Source of the DNA: an uncultured Bacteroidia bacterium
Lineage (GTDB): Bacteria; Bacteroidota; Bacteroidia; NS11-12g; UBA9320
Assembly: GCA_905478335.1 (NCBI GenBank)
Contig: CAJQIC010000019.1
Coordinates: 1 to 64,000 of the forward strand
Direction: 5' to 3'
DNA length: 64,000 nucleotides
Every line of letters begins with the position of its first letter. Within the stretch, counting starts at the first letter, position 1. Position numbers and translations under genes: made by a program. Below, one piece after another: positions 1,410-36,317 of this stretch. The notes under the pieces were generated by a model. That model made no database searches, was not told the origin of the DNA, and saw only the letters and a program-made list of their open reading frames with translations.

Positions 1410-1599
1410 GAGTATAAATAATTATCGTTAGTCAGGGGCAAACAGAGTAAATCTCCAGTAATCTTTTCTCGCTAAAAAATATTTATACAACTGACTGTCA
1501 GCTAATTAAGAAAACTATTCAATATTTCGTGCAACCATGAACAACCATAGAAGACTAACAATGTGAAAGAAACAAATACAAATACTTAAAAACACTTTT

Positions 1600-3507
1600 A
1601 TGAAGAAATCAATCACACAGCGTTTAGGAATACTAGGTAAACCTATTCTGCTTTTATTAATGGCGGCCTTGTTTTGGCCAGCACAAGCATCTGCAACACA
1701 TTGCATTGATACCTTAGATTTTGAATTTACAATTGACAACAATACACGAATTGTAAAATTTGAATCTATTGTGTCAAGCGACGCAAAAGCGTTAAAATGG
1801 GATTTTGGAGATGGGTCAACCTCAAGTGCAGCAAACGTAAAACATAAGTTTGACTCTGCGGGTTACCAGAAAGTGTGCTTAACAGCGTATGGATACGACA
1901 GCATAAATAAAACACGATGTTCTACAACTGTTTGTAAACGATTCAAAATCATTGATTGCAACCAATTAAAAGCAGATTTTAGCATTACTACGAGCGACTT
2001 GTCCGCAAAGTTTGAAGCAAAATCAAACAGCAAAACGGTGGTTTACGGTTGGACTTTTGGCGATAAAAGCACTGCAAGAGGACAGGCTGTAAAGCACACC
2101 TATGATAAGGAAGGCGGTTACAAAGTATGTTTAATTGCAAAAGACACGGTAACAGGATGTATAACACGTGTTTGTAAAGGTGTTAAGGTAGTAGACGCTT
2201 GTAATTTAAAAGTTGATTTTGAATGGAAGGCCGAAGGTCTATCCATAAAAGCAGTTGGGAAATCCAATTCTAAAAACGCGGTATACGGTTGGACTTTAGG
2301 AGACGGAAATTCTGAACGCGGAGATGAAGTAAAACACACTTATGCAAAAGAAGGCAAGTACACCATTTGTTTTGTAGCAAAAGACACCGTTACCGGTTGT
2401 GTTGCACGCAAATGTGTTGACATCAAAGTTGAAAAACCATGTCGACTTAAGGCTTACTTTGAATTTGCACAAGATGGAAACGACTTTAAATTTAGAGCAA
2501 AAGCATCTGATACAAGTGCCCGTTTTATTTGGAATTTTGGTGACGGTCAAACAGCGACAGGAGCCACTACGAAGCATTCATATAAAAAACCAGGCGTATA
2601 TGAGGTGTGTGTTACGGTGTATTCAAAGAACGCCACAGCTACAAATGCTGGATGTCGCGTTAAAGTATGTAAAAAGGTAGTGGTGAAACGCGACTGTGAC
2701 TTAAAAGCAGACTTTAAATACAAAACAGACGGACAGAAAATTGCGGTAAAGGGTGAGTCAAATGAATCAGGTGTATTGTACTTCTGGTCATGGGGTGATG
2801 GAACTTCAAGCACTGGCCAAACAGCTAAACACAAATACAAAAAAGAAGGTGTTTATGAAGTTTGCCTGATTGTATTCAACCCAAAAACAAAGTGCAAAGT
2901 TTGTGTGTGCAAGCGTGTAAAAATTGAAAAGCCTTGTAAGCTAAGAGCGAAAATGAAGTACACGATTAGCGATAATAAGGTGAAATTTAAAGCACGAAGC
3001 AATAGCAAAAACGTTGTTTACGGTTGGAGCTTTGGCGATGGAGACTACCAAAGAGGAAATCCGGTAAGACACGCATATAATAAACCTGGTGTTTATAAAG
3101 TTACCCTAACAGCTAAAGATACAGTTACGGGTTGTGTTGTGACCATCAGCAAACGATTGATTATTAATCCAAATGCACGAAAAAAGACGGCGATTATCCC
3201 AGGTGCTGGTCAAACGCAGTCGGCTGCAACTGCACAGACAATGAACGTTCAAGACCTTGAAACACCGGATGCAGATTGGTCTGCCATGGCATATCCAGTT
3301 CCTTCGAATAGCCAAGTTGACTTTACAGCAGATAAAAACCTAACAAGCGTTAAGGTATTTACGGCAGGAGGATCTGAGGTCCTTTCTGGTGATTTGACAA
3401 CAAATGAAAACCTTGATATAACTACACTACCTACAGGCTACTATTTTGCCCATTTAACTGCGGCAGATGGTAGCGTGAAAATTGTCAAATTCGTCAAAAG
3501 CGAATAA
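1600..3507 (+). CDS. Secreted protein with six cysteine-rich PKD repeats and T9SS sorting domain
   Basis: A signal peptide covers about residues 1-32 (ends ASA-T). Six PKD domains of about 80 residues follow (roughly 35-122, 123-200, 201-280, 281-365, 366-447, 448-527), each with the W-x-F/W/L-GD core motif. A short linker and a T9SS type A sorting domain (about 560-635, ending KIVKFVKSE) complete the protein. Each of the first five repeats carries four cysteines in the same places: one at the start, one in the YxVC strand, then GC/RC/KC and VC near the end. Repeat 6 has kept only two. The pattern suggests disulfide-stabilised extracellular domains. No enzymatic domain is present, so an adhesive or structural surface role is likely. 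A strong terminator follows. Confidence 0.85.
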   Translation: MKKSITQRLGILGKPILLLLMAALFWPAQASATHCIDTLDFEFTIDNNTRIVKFESIVSSDAKALKWDFGDGSTSSAANVKHKFDSAGYQKVCLTAYGYDSINKTRCSTTVCKRFKIIDCNQLKADFSITTSDLSAKFEAKSNSKTVVYGWTFGDKSTARGQAVKHTYDKEGGYKVCLIAKDTVTGCITRVCKGVKVVDACNLKVDFEWKAEGLSIKAVGKSNSKNAVYGWTLGDGNSERGDEVKHTYAKEGKYTICFVAKDTVTGCVARKCVDIKVEKPCRLKAYFEFAQDGNDFKFRAKASDTSARFIWNFGDGQTATGATTKHSYKKPGVYEVCVTVYSKNATATNAGCRVKVCKKVVVKRDCDLKADFKYKTDGQKIAVKGESNESGVLYFWSWGDGTSSTGQTAKHKYKKEGVYEVCLIVFNPKTKCKVCVCKRVKIEKPCKLRAKMKYTISDNKVKFKARSNSKNVVYGWSFGDGDYQRGNPVRHAYNKPGVYKVTLTAKDTVTGCVVTISKRLIINPNARKKTAIIPGAGQTQSAATAQTMNVQDLETPDADWSAMAYPVPSNSQVDFTADKNLTSVKVFTAGGSEVLSGDLTTNENLDITTLPTGYYFAHLTAADGSVKIVKFVKSE

Positions 3508-10667: not shown

Positions 10668-11243
10668 ATGAATATTGGCAAATTAAAAAAGTACCTAGCA
10701 CACAAATTTAAATCTGCAATTCCACCAGAACTGTCCTACCATACGTGGGATCACGTATTGGGAGTGCTTGATGTTTGTAATAAATACGCCAAGCGATACG
10801 GCATAACAGGTAGAGATGCCTATCTATTGAGGTCTGCTGCGTTAATACATGATTTGGGCTTTCTTTGGACCTACACTGATCATGAAGAAGAAGGTGTCGA
10901 ATTTACCAAAAGAGAACTTCCTGCTTGGGGGTACACATCTGAAGATATAAAGAAGATAGATGGGATGATTTTAGCGACTCAGATACCGCAAAAACCTCAA
11001 AACCTTCTTGAAGAAATTATTTGCGATGCCGATTTAGATTATCTAGGTACTGATAATTTTTATACCATTGGCGAAACGTTATTTGAGGAGTTTAAGGCAA
11101 TGGGTCAAATTAAAAGCAGAGCTGATTGGAATAAACTTCAAATAAACTTTTTGAAAGGACATCGCTATCATACACCATTTGCCAGAAAATACAGAGAACC
11201 AGTTAAACAAAAACACTTACAAGATTTAATAGCAAATGGCTGA
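10668..11243 (+). CDS. HD-domain metal-dependent phosphohydrolase
   Basis: The 191-residue protein is a compact HD domain. The metal ligands H29, H61-D62 (LIHDLGF) and D120/D122 (CDADLDYLG) are in the expected order. Members hydrolyse phosphomonoesters or cyclic or polyphosphorylated nucleotides; the substrate of this one is unknown. It is cytoplasmic, with no signal peptide or helix. The gene overlaps the next one, a YitT-family protein, by 8 bases, and a well-formed promoter lies upstream, so the two form an operon. Confidence 0.85.
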   Translation: MNIGKLKKYLAHKFKSAIPPELSYHTWDHVLGVLDVCNKYAKRYGITGRDAYLLRSAALIHDLGFLWTYTDHEEEGVEFTKRELPAWGYTSEDIKKIDGMILATQIPQKPQNLLEEIICDADLDYLGTDNFYTIGETLFEEFKAMGQIKSRADWNKLQINFLKGHRYHTPFARKYREPVKQKHLQDLIANG

Positions 11244-12124
11244 GTTGAAGCAGAAGGTTAACTGGCAAATGATCCTTTCAATGCGATCACTTGCCTATAC
11301 TGCATTGGGCGTTTTTTGTGCCATTTTTGCATTAAAAGGCTTTATGATACCGAACCATTTTTTAGATGGTGGTGTTATCGGAATCTCAATTCTGGCTCAC
11401 GAAATTTTCCATGTTAATATCAGTTGGTTTTTAATCGTGTTCAATATCCCGTTCATTATAATGGGCTACAAAAAAAATTGGGGCGACTTTTACCATACAG
11501 GTCATCATTGCCATTGGTTTGCTAGCCATTTTTATGAATGTGTTAAACATACCAACGGTAACCAACGACAAAATATTAATTGCCATTTTTGGTGGGTTTT
11601 TAATGGGTTTAAGTGTTGGTTTTGTTATTAAGGGTGGGGGCGTAATTGACGGTTTTGAGGTTGCGGCGCATTATACCTATAAGAAAATTGGACTATCAAC
11701 CGGCGAAATCGTACTCTTTGCGAATAGCATTATCTTCCTTCTTGCCGCATTTAACTTTGGAATTGAGGCTGCTATGTATTCTATACTGACATACTTTACC
11801 GCAGTGAAAACGTCTGATTACGTTGTTGATGGTTTTGAAGAGTATACCGCCTTAACAATCGTATCTGAAAAACACGAACAGGTGAAAGAAATCATCGTTA
11901 AAGATTTCAAAAAAGCCATCTCTGTGTATAAGGGTGAGCGGGGGTATTTACCTAAAAGTTTTGAGGTAAGACACGACTGTGATATCGTAATGACCATTGC
12001 TACTCGATTGGAAGTTCACAGGTTAAAGGAGAGTATTTCTGAAGTAGACCCTAAAGCATTTTTCTATAGTCAAAGAATCAAGGAAGTTACAGGAGGCGTG
12101 GTTAAACGCAAAGGACACCATTAG
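11236..12124 (+). pseudogene. YitT-family membrane protein (DUF161 + DUF2179) with a +1 frameshift in an A8 run
   Basis: The first part (ATG 11236) encodes membrane helices up to IIMGYKK. The second part, in the next frame, continues as IGATFTIQVIIAIGLLAIF and then the rest of the family: GGFLMGLSVGFVIKGGGVIDG, further helices and a C-terminal DUF2179 domain ending KRKGHH. The break is at the run of eight A at 11470-11477. Removing one A joins the halves into a single protein of about 295 residues, the normal family length. Left as is, the first frame ends at 11631 with an unrelated tail. The second half has lost no conserved segment and shows no further decay, which favours a sequencing error or reversible slippage over old inactivation. 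Function: uncharacterised integral membrane protein. Confidence 0.8.
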
Positions 12125-31303: not shown

Positions 31304-31783
31304 GTGGAGGATTACGTTTTTCAGGAGGCAACAAGCAATGACATCCCAGCATTGGTATCTGTGTTTATATCAAGTATACAAACAGCTGCTAAACAGGATT
31401 ATTCAAGTAATGAAATCTCGGAATGGTTAGAATCTGCAAACAACAAAAAACGGTGGAGTGAATTGGTACAGCAACAAACAGTAATTGCACTTTATGTCTC
31501 TAAAGTAATGGCAGGTTTTGGGTCATTAAAAGACAAGAATTATATCGACTTTTTATACGTCCATGGCAATCACCAGAAAAAAGGATTTGCTCAAAAAATC
31601 TTAGATAAATTAATCCAAACTGCAGAAAAGCAAGGCCAAACCATCGTTACGTCGGATGTAAGTTACACGGCACGACCGTTGTTTGAGAAAAATGGGTTTA
31701 CCGTTGTTCAACAAAACAATAATGCACGTGGAAGTGAAGTATTGGTCAACTTCAAAATGGAGTTAGTACTTCCTAACGTCTGA
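31304..31783 (+). CDS. GNAT family N-acetyltransferase
   Basis: The 159-residue enzyme has the GNAT acetyl-CoA loop VHGNHQKKGFAQKILDKLI (Q/RxxGxG/A-type) and the late RPLFEKNGFTVVQ motif. It transfers acetyl from acetyl-CoA to an amine; substrate unknown. The start is GTG at 31304, directly after a TTAATTTGCAC box, so its leader would be almost absent. Its 3' end overlaps the convergent T9SS gene by 11 bases. Confidence 0.85.
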   Translation: MEDYVFQEATSNDIPALVSVFISSIQTAAKQDYSSNEISEWLESANNKKRWSELVQQQTVIALYVSKVMAGFGSLKDKNYIDFLYVHGNHQKKGFAQKILDKLIQTAEKQGQTIVTSDVSYTARPLFEKNGFTVVQQNNNARGSEVLVNFKMELVLPNV

Positions 31784-34232
31784 TGACTCGAGCGGTGTAA
31801 TAACCAGCTTCAGACAATACGGTAATGAAGTAAAGGCTTGGCGTTAGGTCTGCTAAGTCGATTACATGATTGGGCTTTAACGAGCCAGATAATACTTGTT
31901 TACCTGTTACCGACGTCACCGTGTATGTACCGCTTTGCTGGCCGTCAATGTCTATAGTCACCTTGCCTTCGGTAGGGTTAGGGTATACCAGTACAGACTC
32001 AGCAGAAGGAATATGAGCCACTGCAGCTGTTTCTTCAACAACTGCTCTTACCTCATTGGTCATTTCATCAAATTCATCGTCAAACAATACACGTGCACGA
32101 TTGGTGTAGGTCGCACCAATTTGCAGGTTTCCAGTCATCTTCATAGTGAATGCAATGTGGCCTTCATCATCCACAATCTCTCCATTTTTTGTTGGATTGG
32201 GAGGAAGGTCGATGTTTGGGAACTTGTAAACCAGAATGGCATAATCCGAGTACTTTGGACCTTCAATGGTTGTAGGTACAACGTTATGACTCCAAGACAC
32301 GTCTAAGATCTCTTGTATAGTGTTATTTAAATCCACCGTGTCTATCACGTAAACAGTGCGAACGGTATCTGAGGTGTAATTAGCAAAGGAGATCTGGTAC
32401 GTAATGGATTCCGCATCTGGGTTAATAAATGCAGTATCCGACCATGTTGTTTCAGGATTGACAAATTTTCGAACATCGTCGTCTTCAGGCATCACACGTT
32501 GCGTTAAAGAACTCGAATTGTTGTCGTCATTTTCTTCAGTTTCATTTTGCACGATGTCTGCCGTGAGTTCAATAAACTCATCAGCATCTTGTTTAACTTT
32601 AAACAAGCATTTAATTACGCCTCTTTCACCTGGAGACAAGTCATTTACATTCCAATATGCTGTGTCTCCTTCCACTTTTTGTGGGGTAGGGAAGGCAGTC
32701 ATTTTTTCTAAATCCTCGTCAAAAGCCAGTTTTACAATTCCCTCAACAAGCTCATTTGATCCTAAGTTTTCATAGTTAATGTAATATTGTTGCAAATTGG
32801 CAGCGATTACCCGTGGGCCCGAAGATGCCGATAAGGTCACTTTTAAATCTCGAATATTACTCTGCTGTACCAATGGAAAATCAAGATCTCTTTTAATATC
32901 ACGGGCTCCCAACTCTACCGTTTGAGTGAGTTGACTGCAAGTGGAAGGACCCCAAAAATCTGCTGGTGTTATCGTTACAGTGTACTTCCCTTCTTCGAGG
33001 TAAATTTTATAAATGCCGTTGATGTTTGGTCGGATTACTCGGTTTCCTGGTTCAATGCGAATAATGTTTTTATTGAGACGTTCGTCACGACCATTGAGCA
33101 TGCAATTATTGTCTTTATCGTGATACACGGTACCCGATAAAATGGCAAATCTCTTTTCAATGTTTTGCATTGGAAGTCGAGCGACATGGTTTAACGTAAT
33201 TCCACGATATTCTTTAAACTCGCCTGAAGCGAACAAAACATTATTGTAAAATAATAAGTCTTTAACTGTAGTAAGTTGGCCAACATTTAGCGGCGCCCAT
33301 TTTCCATTCTCGTATTTGATAATAGAATAAACCGTTTGATCAGTTGAGAACTTAAAAATACCTGAGGCATACAATACATCTCCTGCGGCAACAATATCAG
33401 AGACATAGGTTACTTTATCCAAACCTTCCATCATTTTTTTTGCGGTGTCTCCATCCACTTCAAAAAAGTACATGGGCGTTTCGTTGGCATTAATGGTTCC
33501 AGCCGCAACAATGCCCTTGTTGTAGGACACTAGATGATAGGGGCGGGCAATGTTGGATGCAAATGGTTTCAGTTCTCCTTTTTCAAAATGAGCGATATAC
33601 TTCGACCTTGTGCTTCCAATTTTTGTAAAAACGCCTCCAATATAAAAGTGATCTCCGTTGCCTACTGCAGTTAAAACGCCACCATTTACACTTTCAAGTT
33701 CTTTAATCGCTGATTGCACCCACTTTTCGCCATCAAAAAACCCAATGTTAGCGCTATTCTTTACTTCGGTACTGGAGAAGTAGCCGGCAACAACCAAAAG
33801 ATTATTATAGATGCTAAGCTCTCTAACGGTTTCGTAGAATTTAACGGCGTTGGAGCTGATGTTAGGAACGTTTTTGTATGTCCGACTGGAGTATTTAACT
33901 AAACTTTTTGCGTTGGTTATGGTGTTAAATCGGTTAAACTGACCACCGATGTAGAGTTCGTTTTTATACCATTTCAACGTATGAATTTGTGCACCTGAAT
34001 CACACTTTATGCTTGGTAAGTGTATCCAGATTGTACCCGTCCACACGGAGATACCAAATTGGGTGGCACCATCACTACTTCCAACTTTATATGCGACAGC
34101 CATGGTTTTGTCCAGTTCTGTCATGGCAACAGGGCTGTGTTTTAAGCCTCCATTTAAGGATTGCCAGACTTGTGCGGAACTCGTAGAACAAATCAAACCA
34201 AGGGCGGAACAAAGTAAAAGTACGTGTCTCAT
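31773..34232 (-). CDS. T9SS surface protein with propeller-like, prealbumin-like and DUF11/DUF7619-type domains
   Basis: A signal peptide (1-20, ends SSA-QVWQ) is followed by propeller-like repeats (about 21-355, e.g. YKNELYIGGQFNR, FYIGGVFTKIG, VLYASGIFKF, LFASGEFKEY), then a Cna-B/SdrD-like domain (about 365-450, YHDKDNNCMLNGRDERL, YKIYLEEGKYTVTITP). Next come two conserved beta domains (about 455-730, the second with TYQISFANYTSDTVRTVYVIDTVD of the DUF7619 type) and a T9SS sorting domain (YPNPTEGKVTI, final ARVIRR). It is surface-displayed or secreted. The start overlaps the preceding gene's stop (TAATG), so its translation is coupled to the beta-barrel anti-sigma candidate. Confidence 0.87.
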   Translation of the reverse strand: MRHVLLLCSALGLICSTSSAQVWQSLNGGLKHSPVAMTELDKTMAVAYKVGSSDGATQFGISVWTGTIWIHLPSIKCDSGAQIHTLKWYKNELYIGGQFNRFNTITNAKSLVKYSSRTYKNVPNISSNAVKFYETVRELSIYNNLLVVAGYFSSTEVKNSANIGFFDGEKWVQSAIKELESVNGGVLTAVGNGDHFYIGGVFTKIGSTRSKYIAHFEKGELKPFASNIARPYHLVSYNKGIVAAGTINANETPMYFFEVDGDTAKKMMEGLDKVTYVSDIVAAGDVLYASGIFKFSTDQTVYSIIKYENGKWAPLNVGQLTTVKDLLFYNNVLFASGEFKEYRGITLNHVARLPMQNIEKRFAILSGTVYHDKDNNCMLNGRDERLNKNIIRIEPGNRVIRPNINGIYKIYLEEGKYTVTITPADFWGPSTCSQLTQTVELGARDIKRDLDFPLVQQSNIRDLKVTLSASSGPRVIAANLQQYYINYENLGSNELVEGIVKLAFDEDLEKMTAFPTPQKVEGDTAYWNVNDLSPGERGVIKCLFKVKQDADEFIELTADIVQNETEENDDNNSSSLTQRVMPEDDDVRKFVNPETTWSDTAFINPDAESITYQISFANYTSDTVRTVYVIDTVDLNNTIQEILDVSWSHNVVPTTIEGPKYSDYAILVYKFPNIDLPPNPTKNGEIVDDEGHIAFTMKMTGNLQIGATYTNRARVLFDDEFDEMTNEVRAVVEETAAVAHIPSAESVLVYPNPTEGKVTIDIDGQQSGTYTVTSVTGKQVLSGSLKPNHVIDLADLTPSLYFITVLSEAGYYTARVIRR

Positions 34233-35611
34233 TATTTTTTCAGTTTAAATTGAATGGATAAATCGGTACCGAAACCGGACATCTTTTGTGATATATTGTT
34301 GATTTTCATCATATCCAAAGCATCGGCATCGTACCTCACGAGTAGTCTTAATTTCATCCGATCATTCAAGGCGTAACCGGATGCAATATAACCGCCGTAT
34401 GTCAACGACAGACGGTTGAAGCCAGACAAACGCTGCACTGGCATCTGGTTCAAGTCGCCATTTAATATGGTTCCTGTACCACCAATTAAGTATTGAATAT
34501 TCGTATTTATACCCACTGTGAGGTCAAATTTGTTACCATCGTAAATAGTCTTTCCAATCGATAATGGAATGGTAACATACCGATATCTCGGACTTGTAAC
34601 GCCATTTACAAGTGTGTCTCTATAATTATATCTAGGGTAACTTGTATCGCCATTGACATCAACGCGGAGTACAGAATCGTAAACCTCATATTTGAACATT
34701 GGACTGTTTTCTTGCCCTTTTTCTTGATATTTCAATCCTGTAGCAATCTGCATTCCTTTGACGCCGGCACCAATGTCAAATCCAACATTTGGTCTGAACG
34801 ATGCTGATTCGTTGCCATTTCGATAAGTGGTGTAGTTCGCAATGTTAGAATTTAACTGCTGACTTAACTGACTACCTCCAAGCGACAATCCAATGAATGG
34901 GTCAATAAACTTAGTCAACGGGCCAAAGGTGTCAATCAAAGAAGCCATTGGGTAGATATAAATTGGAGGCTTTTGATCCAGTCTTTCATCAAGTGTAAGC
35001 ATAGGAGCACCATATGGGTCAAACCTATTGTATAACGTAACACTTGATTTGGGTAATAAGGTAAGAAGTTCAAACGGTTGATTTGTCACTTTCGAAGACG
35101 CATCAATTCCTTTGCTACCCGTTTTAACTTGGGGCTTGGTTACCTTAGGCTGTTTTGAGTTACTGCCGGATATGGTTTTTGTTGATTTAATAGTTTCGTT
35201 GTCTTTCTCACCACGCTTCGCGCTTTCGTCTACATGGTCAACGTTAACCGACTTGGATGCCCCGTCAATGTTGTCACCTTTTTCAACTAATATATCGGTT
35301 GACTCTTCTGTTATATCGTCTTGACTTGCGTTCTCTTCTAATCTATTTTCTTTACCCTTGGTGTTGTCTTCAACTGGATTTTGAACTTTAGTCTGATTAG
35401 CCAAAGAAGTAGAATTCAAATTATAGTAAAGAAGTCCAGCAGCGGAAACCAACAAAATGCCAATACCAAACCACCACCAAACAAATCGTTTTTTCTTTTT
35501 CGGGTGTAATTCTCCAGCCAATCTGTCCCATTCGGAGCCATCTAAAGGCAATTGCGATCCCTGCAAATTGTCCTTAAACAAATCGTCGATATGTTTCTTT
35601 TTGTTAGCCAA
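34232..35611 (-). CDS. Candidate dual-membrane-spanning anti-sigma factor with outer-membrane beta-barrel
   Basis: The order of parts is: a cytoplasmic head (1-42, LFKDNLQ-x-GSEWDRLAGEL), one inner-membrane helix (43-64, FVWWWFGIGILLVSAAGLL), a hydrophilic Asn/Glu/Lys/Thr-rich linker (about 66-185) and an amphipathic-strand region (about 210-459) with outer-membrane barrel features such as FIDPFIGLSLGGSQLS, FDIGAGVKGMQIATGLKY and the terminal LSIQFKLKK. No signal peptide cleavage site is present. Bacteroides Dma proteins with this layout are anti-sigma factors. Here it follows an ECF sigma gene with an 8-base overlap, which supports that role. It lacks FecR or zinc-finger anti-sigma motifs. 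The barrel and function are inferred. Confidence 0.75.
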   Translation of the reverse strand: MANKKKHIDDLFKDNLQGSQLPLDGSEWDRLAGELHPKKKKRFVWWWFGIGILLVSAAGLLYYNLNSTSLANQTKVQNPVEDNTKGKENRLEENASQDDITEESTDILVEKGDNIDGASKSVNVDHVDESAKRGEKDNETIKSTKTISGSNSKQPKVTKPQVKTGSKGIDASSKVTNQPFELLTLLPKSSVTLYNRFDPYGAPMLTLDERLDQKPPIYIYPMASLIDTFGPLTKFIDPFIGLSLGGSQLSQQLNSNIANYTTYRNGNESASFRPNVGFDIGAGVKGMQIATGLKYQEKGQENSPMFKYEVYDSVLRVDVNGDTSYPRYNYRDTLVNGVTSPRYRYVTIPLSIGKTIYDGNKFDLTVGINTNIQYLIGGTGTILNGDLNQMPVQRLSGFNRLSLTYGGYIASGYALNDRMKLRLLVRYDADALDMMKINNISQKMSGFGTDLSIQFKLKK

Positions 35612-36179
35612 TGTTTAGTTGTTCTTTAACCAGTTTCTTTAGCAGCATTCGGGCTCTAGCCAATTGGGACTTAGAAGTGCCGGTGCTTATTTTTAGTTCT
35701 TTTGCTATATCGTTATGCGAATATCCTTCAATCGCATATAAATTAAATACCATTCTATACCCATCTGGAAGCTGAGCGATAATTTTATGTAAATCGCTCA
35801 GTTTGACTTCGTCATCATCTTCCAAAGTAAGTATATAGCTAGTATCATCATTTCCGTATTCGTGCACTTTTTCTGCTTCTTCGAAGTGCATGTATTTTGT
35901 ACTTTTTTTAAAATGGTCAATGGATGTATTTATCATCAACCTTGTCATCCAAGTTTCAAGCGTACTGGTACCCTTAAATTTTTCAATACGTTGAAAAACT
36001 TTTATAAAACCTTCATGGAGCGCATCTTTTGCGTCCTCCATATTTGAGCAATATCTGGCACATACCCCTAACATTTTGGGCGCATAGTTTTCAAACAATA
36101 TCTTTTGGGCACGTGAATCATTGTCAATACAGGCAGATATAATATCCTGTTCGCTTGCCAAGTTTCTTTCTTTACCCAT
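35604..36179 (-). CDS. ECF-type RNA polymerase sigma factor
   Basis: The 191-residue protein has sigma region 2 (FENYAPKMLGVCARYCSNMEDAKDALHEGFIKVF, then the WMTRLMINTSIDHF helix) and region 4 (LPDGYRMVFNLYAIEGYSHNDIAKEL with the helix-turn-helix SKSQLARARMLLKKL). It redirects RNA polymerase to a specific regulon. It is the first gene of a three-gene operon, overlapping the candidate anti-sigma gene by 8 bases, which is followed by a T9SS surface protein. It is not of the FecI type by context: no TonB-dependent receptor or FecR is near. Confidence 0.93.
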   Translation of the reverse strand: MGKERNLASEQDIISACIDNDSRAQKILFENYAPKMLGVCARYCSNMEDAKDALHEGFIKVFQRIEKFKGTSTLETWMTRLMINTSIDHFKKSTKYMHFEEAEKVHEYGNDDTSYILTLEDDDEVKLSDLHKIIAQLPDGYRMVFNLYAIEGYSHNDIAKELKISTGTSKSQLARARMLLKKLVKEQLNIG

Positions 36180-36317
36180 TAGTCTGTGGAATCAACCAAA
36201 GGTTGCATCATCAAACATAAAAGTTTGAAATTTTCTTTACAGGCTATAGAATAGATTGTTATTCAAGTCATTACGATGCCTGACCTGAATGTAATACAGT
36301 ATGTTTTGATACATTTA

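Follow-up and report, generated by a model that had tools for sequence, protein, structure and literature searches.

A candidate Dma/EcfO-Reo-type sigma factor switch with a near-obligate secreted third component in an uncultured Bacteroidia bacterium

Introduction

What is a protein secreted to the cell surface doing at the end of an operon that begins with a sigma factor? The question is raised by three genes on the complementary strand of a 64,000-nucleotide (nt) stretch of DNA, referred to here as the window, from an uncultured Bacteroidia bacterium (contig CAJQIC010000019.1, or C19, of a 2.78-Mb genome labelled G000). In order of transcription, they encode an extracytoplasmic function (ECF) sigma factor, a 459-residue protein predicted to reach from the cytoplasm to the outer membrane, and an 819-residue protein with the features of cargo of the type IX secretion system (T9SS). 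We consider it somewhat probable that this trio constitutes a sigma/anti-sigma switch of the Dma/EcfO-Reo type (Dma, dual-membrane-spanning anti-sigma) with a third, surface-exposed component. Computation supports the gene order, the predicted architecture, the kinship with Dma proteins, the linkage of the three genes, the conservation of the promoter and the predicted targets.

Results

Operon layout and architecture of the middle protein

The coordinates of the trio and both of its gene overlaps, as recorded in a first-pass annotation of the window, held up on recheck: the sigma factor gene and the middle gene share 8 bases, and the middle and third genes share a single base (TAATG). In nearly all homologous loci the sigma factor gene and the middle gene overlap or abut in this same order. 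Another cluster with an 8-base overlap, at 10668-12124, was rejected as a second copy; it encodes HD-domain and YitT proteins. The true start of the sigma factor is probably the TTG at codon 7 (36161) rather than the annotated ATG, because the -10 box GACTA abuts this ATG and because the TTG is kept in 10/10 orthologs. The paralogous sigma factors have a TTG start about 20-25 nt past their own -10 box.

The middle protein matches no family in Pfam or NCBIfam and, by sequence, no solved structure. Its AlphaFold2 model, built with an alignment of 11 relatives, consists of two short head helices, a transmembrane helix (residues 44-65), a disordered stretch (residues 63-234; predicted local distance difference test score, pLDDT, about 27) and a set of strands at residues 237-456 (pLDDT about 90). 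Over its whole length the barrel aligns with solved 8-stranded outer-membrane proteins (OmpA, NspA and OmpW; Z 16-18; Foldseek was also run). The model thus agrees with the first-pass annotation, which had proposed a head, one inner-membrane helix, a linker and an outer-membrane-like barrel in one polypeptide, the barrel forming its C-terminal part. The linker, however, had been put at about 120 residues, whereas the disordered stretch comprises about 170. Its length varies from 113 to 226 residues among 33 family members and, if extended, would suffice for crossing a periplasm.

In three homologous loci (L042, L064 and L069), the head segment with its Trp motif occurs two to three times in tandem ahead of the membrane helix, within the N-terminal 100-150 residues, as if one such protein could perhaps hold more than one sigma factor.

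Kinship with the Dma/EcfO-Reo class

In the Dma/Das systems of Bacteroides thetaiotaomicron (Dma1 and Dma2) and the EcfO-Reo systems of B. fragilis and Phocaeicola vulgatus, an ECF sigma factor gene is likewise followed by a gene for a head-transmembrane-tether-barrel polypeptide, the operon is induced on loss of the anti-sigma factor, and the regulon includes surface proteins (PMC13088901, PMC9308784, PMC13114119). Dma proteins have the same domain order as the middle protein and an adjacent ECF21 sigma factor (PMC13088901). In P. vulgatus, losing such an anti-sigma factor activates its sigma factor, and exposure to a toxin induces the pair (PMC9308784). Pairs of the type found next to nigD are reported to control surface lipoproteins (PMC9308784, PMC13114119, PMC13088901), the NigD lipoproteins of the surface being EcfO-dependent outputs (PMC13114119).

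The middle protein of the trio has the traits of a Dma protein, namely a transmembrane helix, a long disordered tether and a C-terminal barrel in a single chain, encoded next to an ECF sigma factor gene. Reference pairs from Bacteroidales were picked by a NigD search and the neighbourhood of nigD, not by name, and the barrel profile matches the anti-sigma candidates of these nigD-adjacent pairs with an hhalign probability of 96.8 (E 2.1e-10). In a tree of 74 sigma factors, those of the trios form a group of 28 rows (support 90); a nearby group unites the nigD-linked sigma factors with four further trio sigma factors (support 84), and most other ECF sigma factors of the host genome are placed further out. 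With regard to ECF21, the cognate sigma factor groups near those of the nigD-adjacent pairs at moderate support (84-90) in a comparison made by tree. On the strength of the architecture, the barrel profile match, the sigma factor tree and the published work on Dma and P. vulgatus, we place the pair, with moderate to good confidence, in the Dma/EcfO-Reo class as a member or close relative. The resemblance to Dma proteins pointed out in the first-pass annotation is thereby supported, and the 459-residue protein would bind the sigma factor via its head.

The third protein and its export

In the 819-residue protein, DUF11, DUF7619 and a T9SS sorting domain of type A all score above the curated cut-offs, and the N-terminus (MRHVLLLCSALGLICSTSSAQ), judged by eye, resembles a signal peptide; a signal peptide together with a type A C-terminal sorting domain characterizes T9SS type A cargo. 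The host genome encodes the T9SS translocon SprA. A sequence search of solved structures matched the sorting domain only. The AlphaFold2 model is all-beta (pLDDT 78), and its residues from about 18 to 357 match WD40-type propellers (Z about 22, root-mean-square deviation (rmsd) 3.1 Å over 266 residues) and also the propellers of Bacteroides hybrid two-component sensors. Both the sorting-domain matches and the structural match are as expected from the earlier description of a T9SS-exported protein with a propeller-like domain.

Linkage of the third gene to the pair

In 97 genomes of the same order, homologs of the middle gene are present in 94, and 89 have a match to the N-terminal portion of the third protein. 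Strong third-gene matches lie directly downstream of a middle-gene match, on the same strand, in 99 of 108 cases. Four of the nine exceptions are linked as well (two intact trios, one tandem copy and one split by a small reading frame), which brings the count to 103 of 108; contig ends truncate four of the remaining five, and the fifth was left uninspected. The trio is found in several paralogous copies per genome, and 51 of the 150 middle-gene matches listed are without a third gene. Conservation of the T9SS gene beside the pair in relatives, which had been anticipated, is thus seen far beyond chance, and within the order this gene is a fixed part of the switch rather than a passenger. Beyond the order, the pair is widespread, with 121 of 392 genomes carrying it, but the T9SS gene is nearly always missing: among the matches listed, a clear third-gene homolog was seen once (L144) in 40 neighbourhoods, one of which comes from the host genome.

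Pairwise distances of barrel and propeller, calculated over 33 loci (L045, see below, included), correlate with r 0.84 and with a partial r of 0.40 given the sigma factor, which fits a trio transmitted and diverging as a unit.

The host genome has two trios, on C19 and C20. The latter (L051, 199-4507) is complete and has a promoter of the type TGCAACC-N15-GTCTA, found once per genome. On C45, a Dma-type pair is followed by an unrelated 514-residue protein with a borderline T9SS sorting domain (L152, 3752-7403). Elsewhere, two third-gene homologs stand in tandem after one anti-sigma gene (L208, 4792-8851), and in other Bacteroidota families the pair precedes a gene for a 323-347-residue protein (L113, L114, L115, L117 and L128); three of these proteins were scanned, and none exceeded a Pfam cut-off. 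Such neighbourhoods suggest that different lineages may carry different third components. Weak propeller matches outside the order were set aside, being mostly partial, and the best two (L201 and L202) are unlinked to an anti-sigma gene. L045 was rejected as a trio: the 805-residue protein encoded next to the pair does not match the third protein significantly, and the sigma factor of this locus is placed outside the group.

A conserved promoter motif and the predicted regulon

The motif TGCAACC-N16-GACTA stands upstream of the sigma factor gene in 10 of 11 orthologs, the window included; it was not found upstream of this gene in L037. Six paralogs share the motif TGCAACC-N13-GTGTCTA, which occurs once per genome, at their own sigma factor gene. 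Both motifs resemble the -35 and -10 elements of ECF promoters and so imply autoregulation; apparently, the operon is controlled by its own sigma factor. A motif of ECF type has been described in F. psychrophilum, ahead of genes for T9SS components and of a sigma/anti-sigma pair (PMC9723704).

The host genome contains three exact copies of TGCAACC-N16-GACTA: one at the sigma factor promoter, one at 1530-1557 of the window and one inside a gene; a reversed-pattern control gave 0. The gene downstream of the window copy (1600-3507) encodes a T9SS-exported protein with PKD domains, which is likely the main target of the switch. This arrangement of motif and PKD gene is kept in two sister genomes and recurs in G003, G007 and G009, where the PKD proteins are orthologs or similar; in the last of these genomes, the PKD gene comes directly after the trio. 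In 37 relatives, 15 intergenic motif sites other than those at sigma factor genes have a reading frame no more than 100 nt away. Ten of them precede T9SS cargo, three precede lipoproteins (judged by eye from their N-termini), one precedes a small exported protein, and one precedes a DUF1800 gene that is itself followed by a gene with a sorting domain. In comparable stretches of the host genome, 8 of 92 genes have a sorting domain; at a background of 10%, the chance of 10 in 15 is 2e-7, although the independent evidence is smaller than this figure implies, since six of the ten are of one orthologous PKD type. The pattern suggests that the sigma factor may control a small set of exported surface proteins, most of them secreted by the T9SS.

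Two orthologous lipoprotein operons (L256:1494-5659 and L257:3515-7656) are possible further members of this regulon; the copy of the motif is near-exact in G000 and exact in G002. Motif sites inside a gene of about 345 codons near a paralogous trio were set aside as coding coincidence. The features of the window are collected in Table 1.

Table 1. Features of the trio and of its predicted regulon in the window
Feature	Position	Strand	Basis and remarks
ECF sigma factor gene	35604..36179	-	191 aa as annotated; likely start TTG 36161, giving 185 aa; Pfam Sigma70_r2 and r4_2; clusters with EcfO-like sigma factors
Dma/Reo-like anti-sigma candidate, 459 aa, TTG start	34232..35611	-	architecture; profile match to Bacteroidales Dma-type proteins
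Cytoplasmic head, candidate sigma-binding segment, residues 1-43	35483..35611	-	conserved HIDD-F ... PLDGSEW motif; two short helices modelled at low confidence
Inner-membrane helix, residues 44-65	35417..35482	-	AlphaFold helix after KKKKR
Disordered periplasmic linker, residues 66-234	34910..35416	-	pLDDT about 27; 113-226 residues across family
8-stranded outer-membrane barrel, residues 235-459	34235..34909	-	pLDDT about 90; Z 16-18 to OmpA, NspA, OmpW
T9SS-exported surface protein, 819 aa, near-obligate third gene	31773..34232	-	Por_Secre_tail/TIGR04183, DUF11, DUF7619; linkage
Beta-propeller domain, residues 22-357	33162..34169	-	VIA Z about 22 to WD40 propellers, rmsd 3.1 Å / 266 residues
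Beta-sandwich, residues 358-455, two family-conserved Cys (377, 432)	32868..33161	-	alignment and model
Type A T9SS C-terminal sorting domain, residues 749-816	31785..31988	-	PF18962 3.5e-9, TIGR04183 1.6e-8
Predicted autoregulatory ECF promoter TGCAACC-N16-GACTA	36180..36207	-	window and 9/10 other ortholog loci examined
Second exact promoter-motif copy	1530..1557	+	same place kept in G001, G004
Predicted regulon member, T9SS-exported, six PKD domains, 635 aa	1600..3507	+	Pfam PKD_4 1.7e-68, Por_Secre_tail; motif 42 nt upstream

Discussion

In the model that we prefer, the cytoplasmic head of the 459-residue protein would hold the ECF sigma factor at the inner membrane, and the same polypeptide would reach through both membranes to its 8-stranded barrel. 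The propeller protein, translated from the same transcript and exported by the T9SS, would sit on the surface and most likely dock on the barrel or otherwise engage it. A surface event, be it the binding of a ligand, the condition of the surface layer or export by the T9SS, would alter the pull on the anti-sigma factor or its cleavage and free the sigma factor, which would then transcribe its own operon and a small regulon via TGCAACC-N16-GACTA promoters. Within this chain, we infer the sigma binding, the docking on the barrel, the signal and the mechanism of release.

The first-pass annotation had offered three roles for the third protein, those of sensor, ligand and regulon member. The last of these is supported, because a gene in an apparently autoregulated operon is at least a member of its regulon. 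That the protein is more than a co-expressed output is argued by its near-obligate linkage in every paralogous copy, the other predicted targets being untied to the locus. In our opinion, the third protein may take part in sensing, and its gene is probably the surface half of the switch. A fuller version is put forward tentatively, as quite possibly right but not to be called probable: the T9SS propeller protein would be the outside receptor, the T9SS-built state of the surface would directly set the transcription of T9SS surface proteins, and each cell would have several insulated copies of the switch, each with its own partner and promoter type.

Alternatively, the third protein might be an output only: a surface effector that stays in the operon so as to be co-expressed, comparable to the NigD lipoproteins of EcfO-Reo, and with no role in sensing. 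Such a role would accord with the apparent autoregulation of the operon, with the other T9SS cargo apparently in the same regulon, with the EcfO-dependence of the NigD surface lipoproteins (PMC13114119) and with the many Dma-type pairs that have no third gene. We nevertheless think it somewhat unlikely, given that the adjacency is near-obligate and directional in several paralogous copies per genome, whereas the predicted PKD regulon members move around the genome, and given that barrel and propeller diverge in a partner-matched way. It is also conceivable that the barrel serves mainly to anchor the third protein at the surface or to assist its secretion, as PorP/SprF does for proteins with a type B C-terminal domain (CTD), and that the sigma arm reports barrel loading as a secretion or assembly checkpoint. 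PorP-like barrels do bind T9SS cargo, and sprF adjoins sprB (PMC9143113); feedback of PorA on PorXY-SigP has been proposed (PMC7712824), and the predicted regulon here is itself T9SS cargo. This arrangement is unlikely, in our estimate, as the sorting domain of the cargo is of type A (TIGR04183), not type B, and as the barrel matches small 8-stranded proteins, whereas PorP-like barrels are 14-stranded and FadL-type; the closest solved folds of the barrel are 8-stranded, although the absence of FadL-type barrels from that match list by itself excludes nothing. Finally, the middle protein could be a structural tether between the membranes, cotranscribed with the sigma factor by chance, and no anti-sigma factor at all. 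No sigma-binding domain is recognised in it by sequence, and its head is modelled at low confidence. Even so, we hold this to be very unlikely in view of the overlapping or abutting genes in nearly all loci, the conserved head motif and the kinship with proteins whose loss activates their sigma factor in Bacteroidales (PMC9308784, PMC13088901).

It should be noted that several observations weigh against a switch with a sensing partner at the surface. The outer loops of the barrel are not significantly more conserved than its strands, so the idea of their special conservation is unsupported. The sigma/anti-sigma pair occurs without the third gene elsewhere in the phylum and once in the host genome, and common inheritance of one operon also yields correlated distances and accounts for part of the correlation reported above. 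As for the regulon, the predicted targets rest on a short motif, which is at noise level once a mismatch is allowed (14 sites versus 17 in the control), save for the site ahead of the lipoprotein operon of G000; a single kind of PKD protein, recurring in related genomes, makes up six of the ten T9SS targets.

The relay of a surface event across the outer and inner membranes to an ECF sigma factor is familiar from FecA-FecR-FecI. In that system the barrel is a separate TonB-dependent transporter, whereas here a small barrel is fused to the anti-sigma candidate; no gene for a TonB-dependent transducer is present in the trio operon. In the PorA-PorXY-SigP pathway of Porphyromonas gingivalis, an ECF sigma factor has a surface protein with a T9SS CTD acting upstream of it (PMC7712824). 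The inner-membrane step of this pathway, however, is carried out by a two-component system; PorA, which contains a FimH-like domain, is reported only in Porphyromonas; and the pathway regulates components of the T9SS, whereas the predicted targets of the trio are cargo. PorP/SprF and the type B CTD proteins, in which a barrel of the outer membrane has its own partner exported by the T9SS (PMC9143113), are a precedent for the cargo-barrel pair; they differ in the 14-stranded FadL-type barrel, the type B CTD and the lack of a sigma arm. In the sources on Dma and EcfO-Reo cited above, no T9SS protein is described in the operon, and the linked or regulated genes are nigD or others of unknown function. 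In the trio, by contrast, the near-obligate third gene encodes a T9SS propeller protein, and the targets predicted for the switch are T9SS cargo.

A signalling system with a secreted third component had been presumed undescribed. In the literature searched, which took in few subscription papers or preprints, we found neither a three-part system nor a fixed T9SS partner combined with a regulon of T9SS cargo. The general idea is not wholly new, however, since a T9SS surface protein, PorA, is already connected with an ECF sigma factor through its place upstream of PorXY-SigP (PMC7712824). What is new here is the near-obligate T9SS partner, the conserved ECF-type promoter and the predicted T9SS-cargo regulon; the pair itself is of a known class.

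Each copy of the switch comes with its own exported partner, and this offers a direct handle on what anti-sigma factors of the Dma/Reo type sense, while the promoter motif yields both a ready-made reporter and a set of targets. Should the partner prove to be the sensor, three proteins would be enough for these cells to read the state of their T9SS-built surface, and surface-to-gene signalling of this form would be new. Since the promoter sequences suggest control of other surface proteins, the cell exterior could report straight to the genes responsible for building it.

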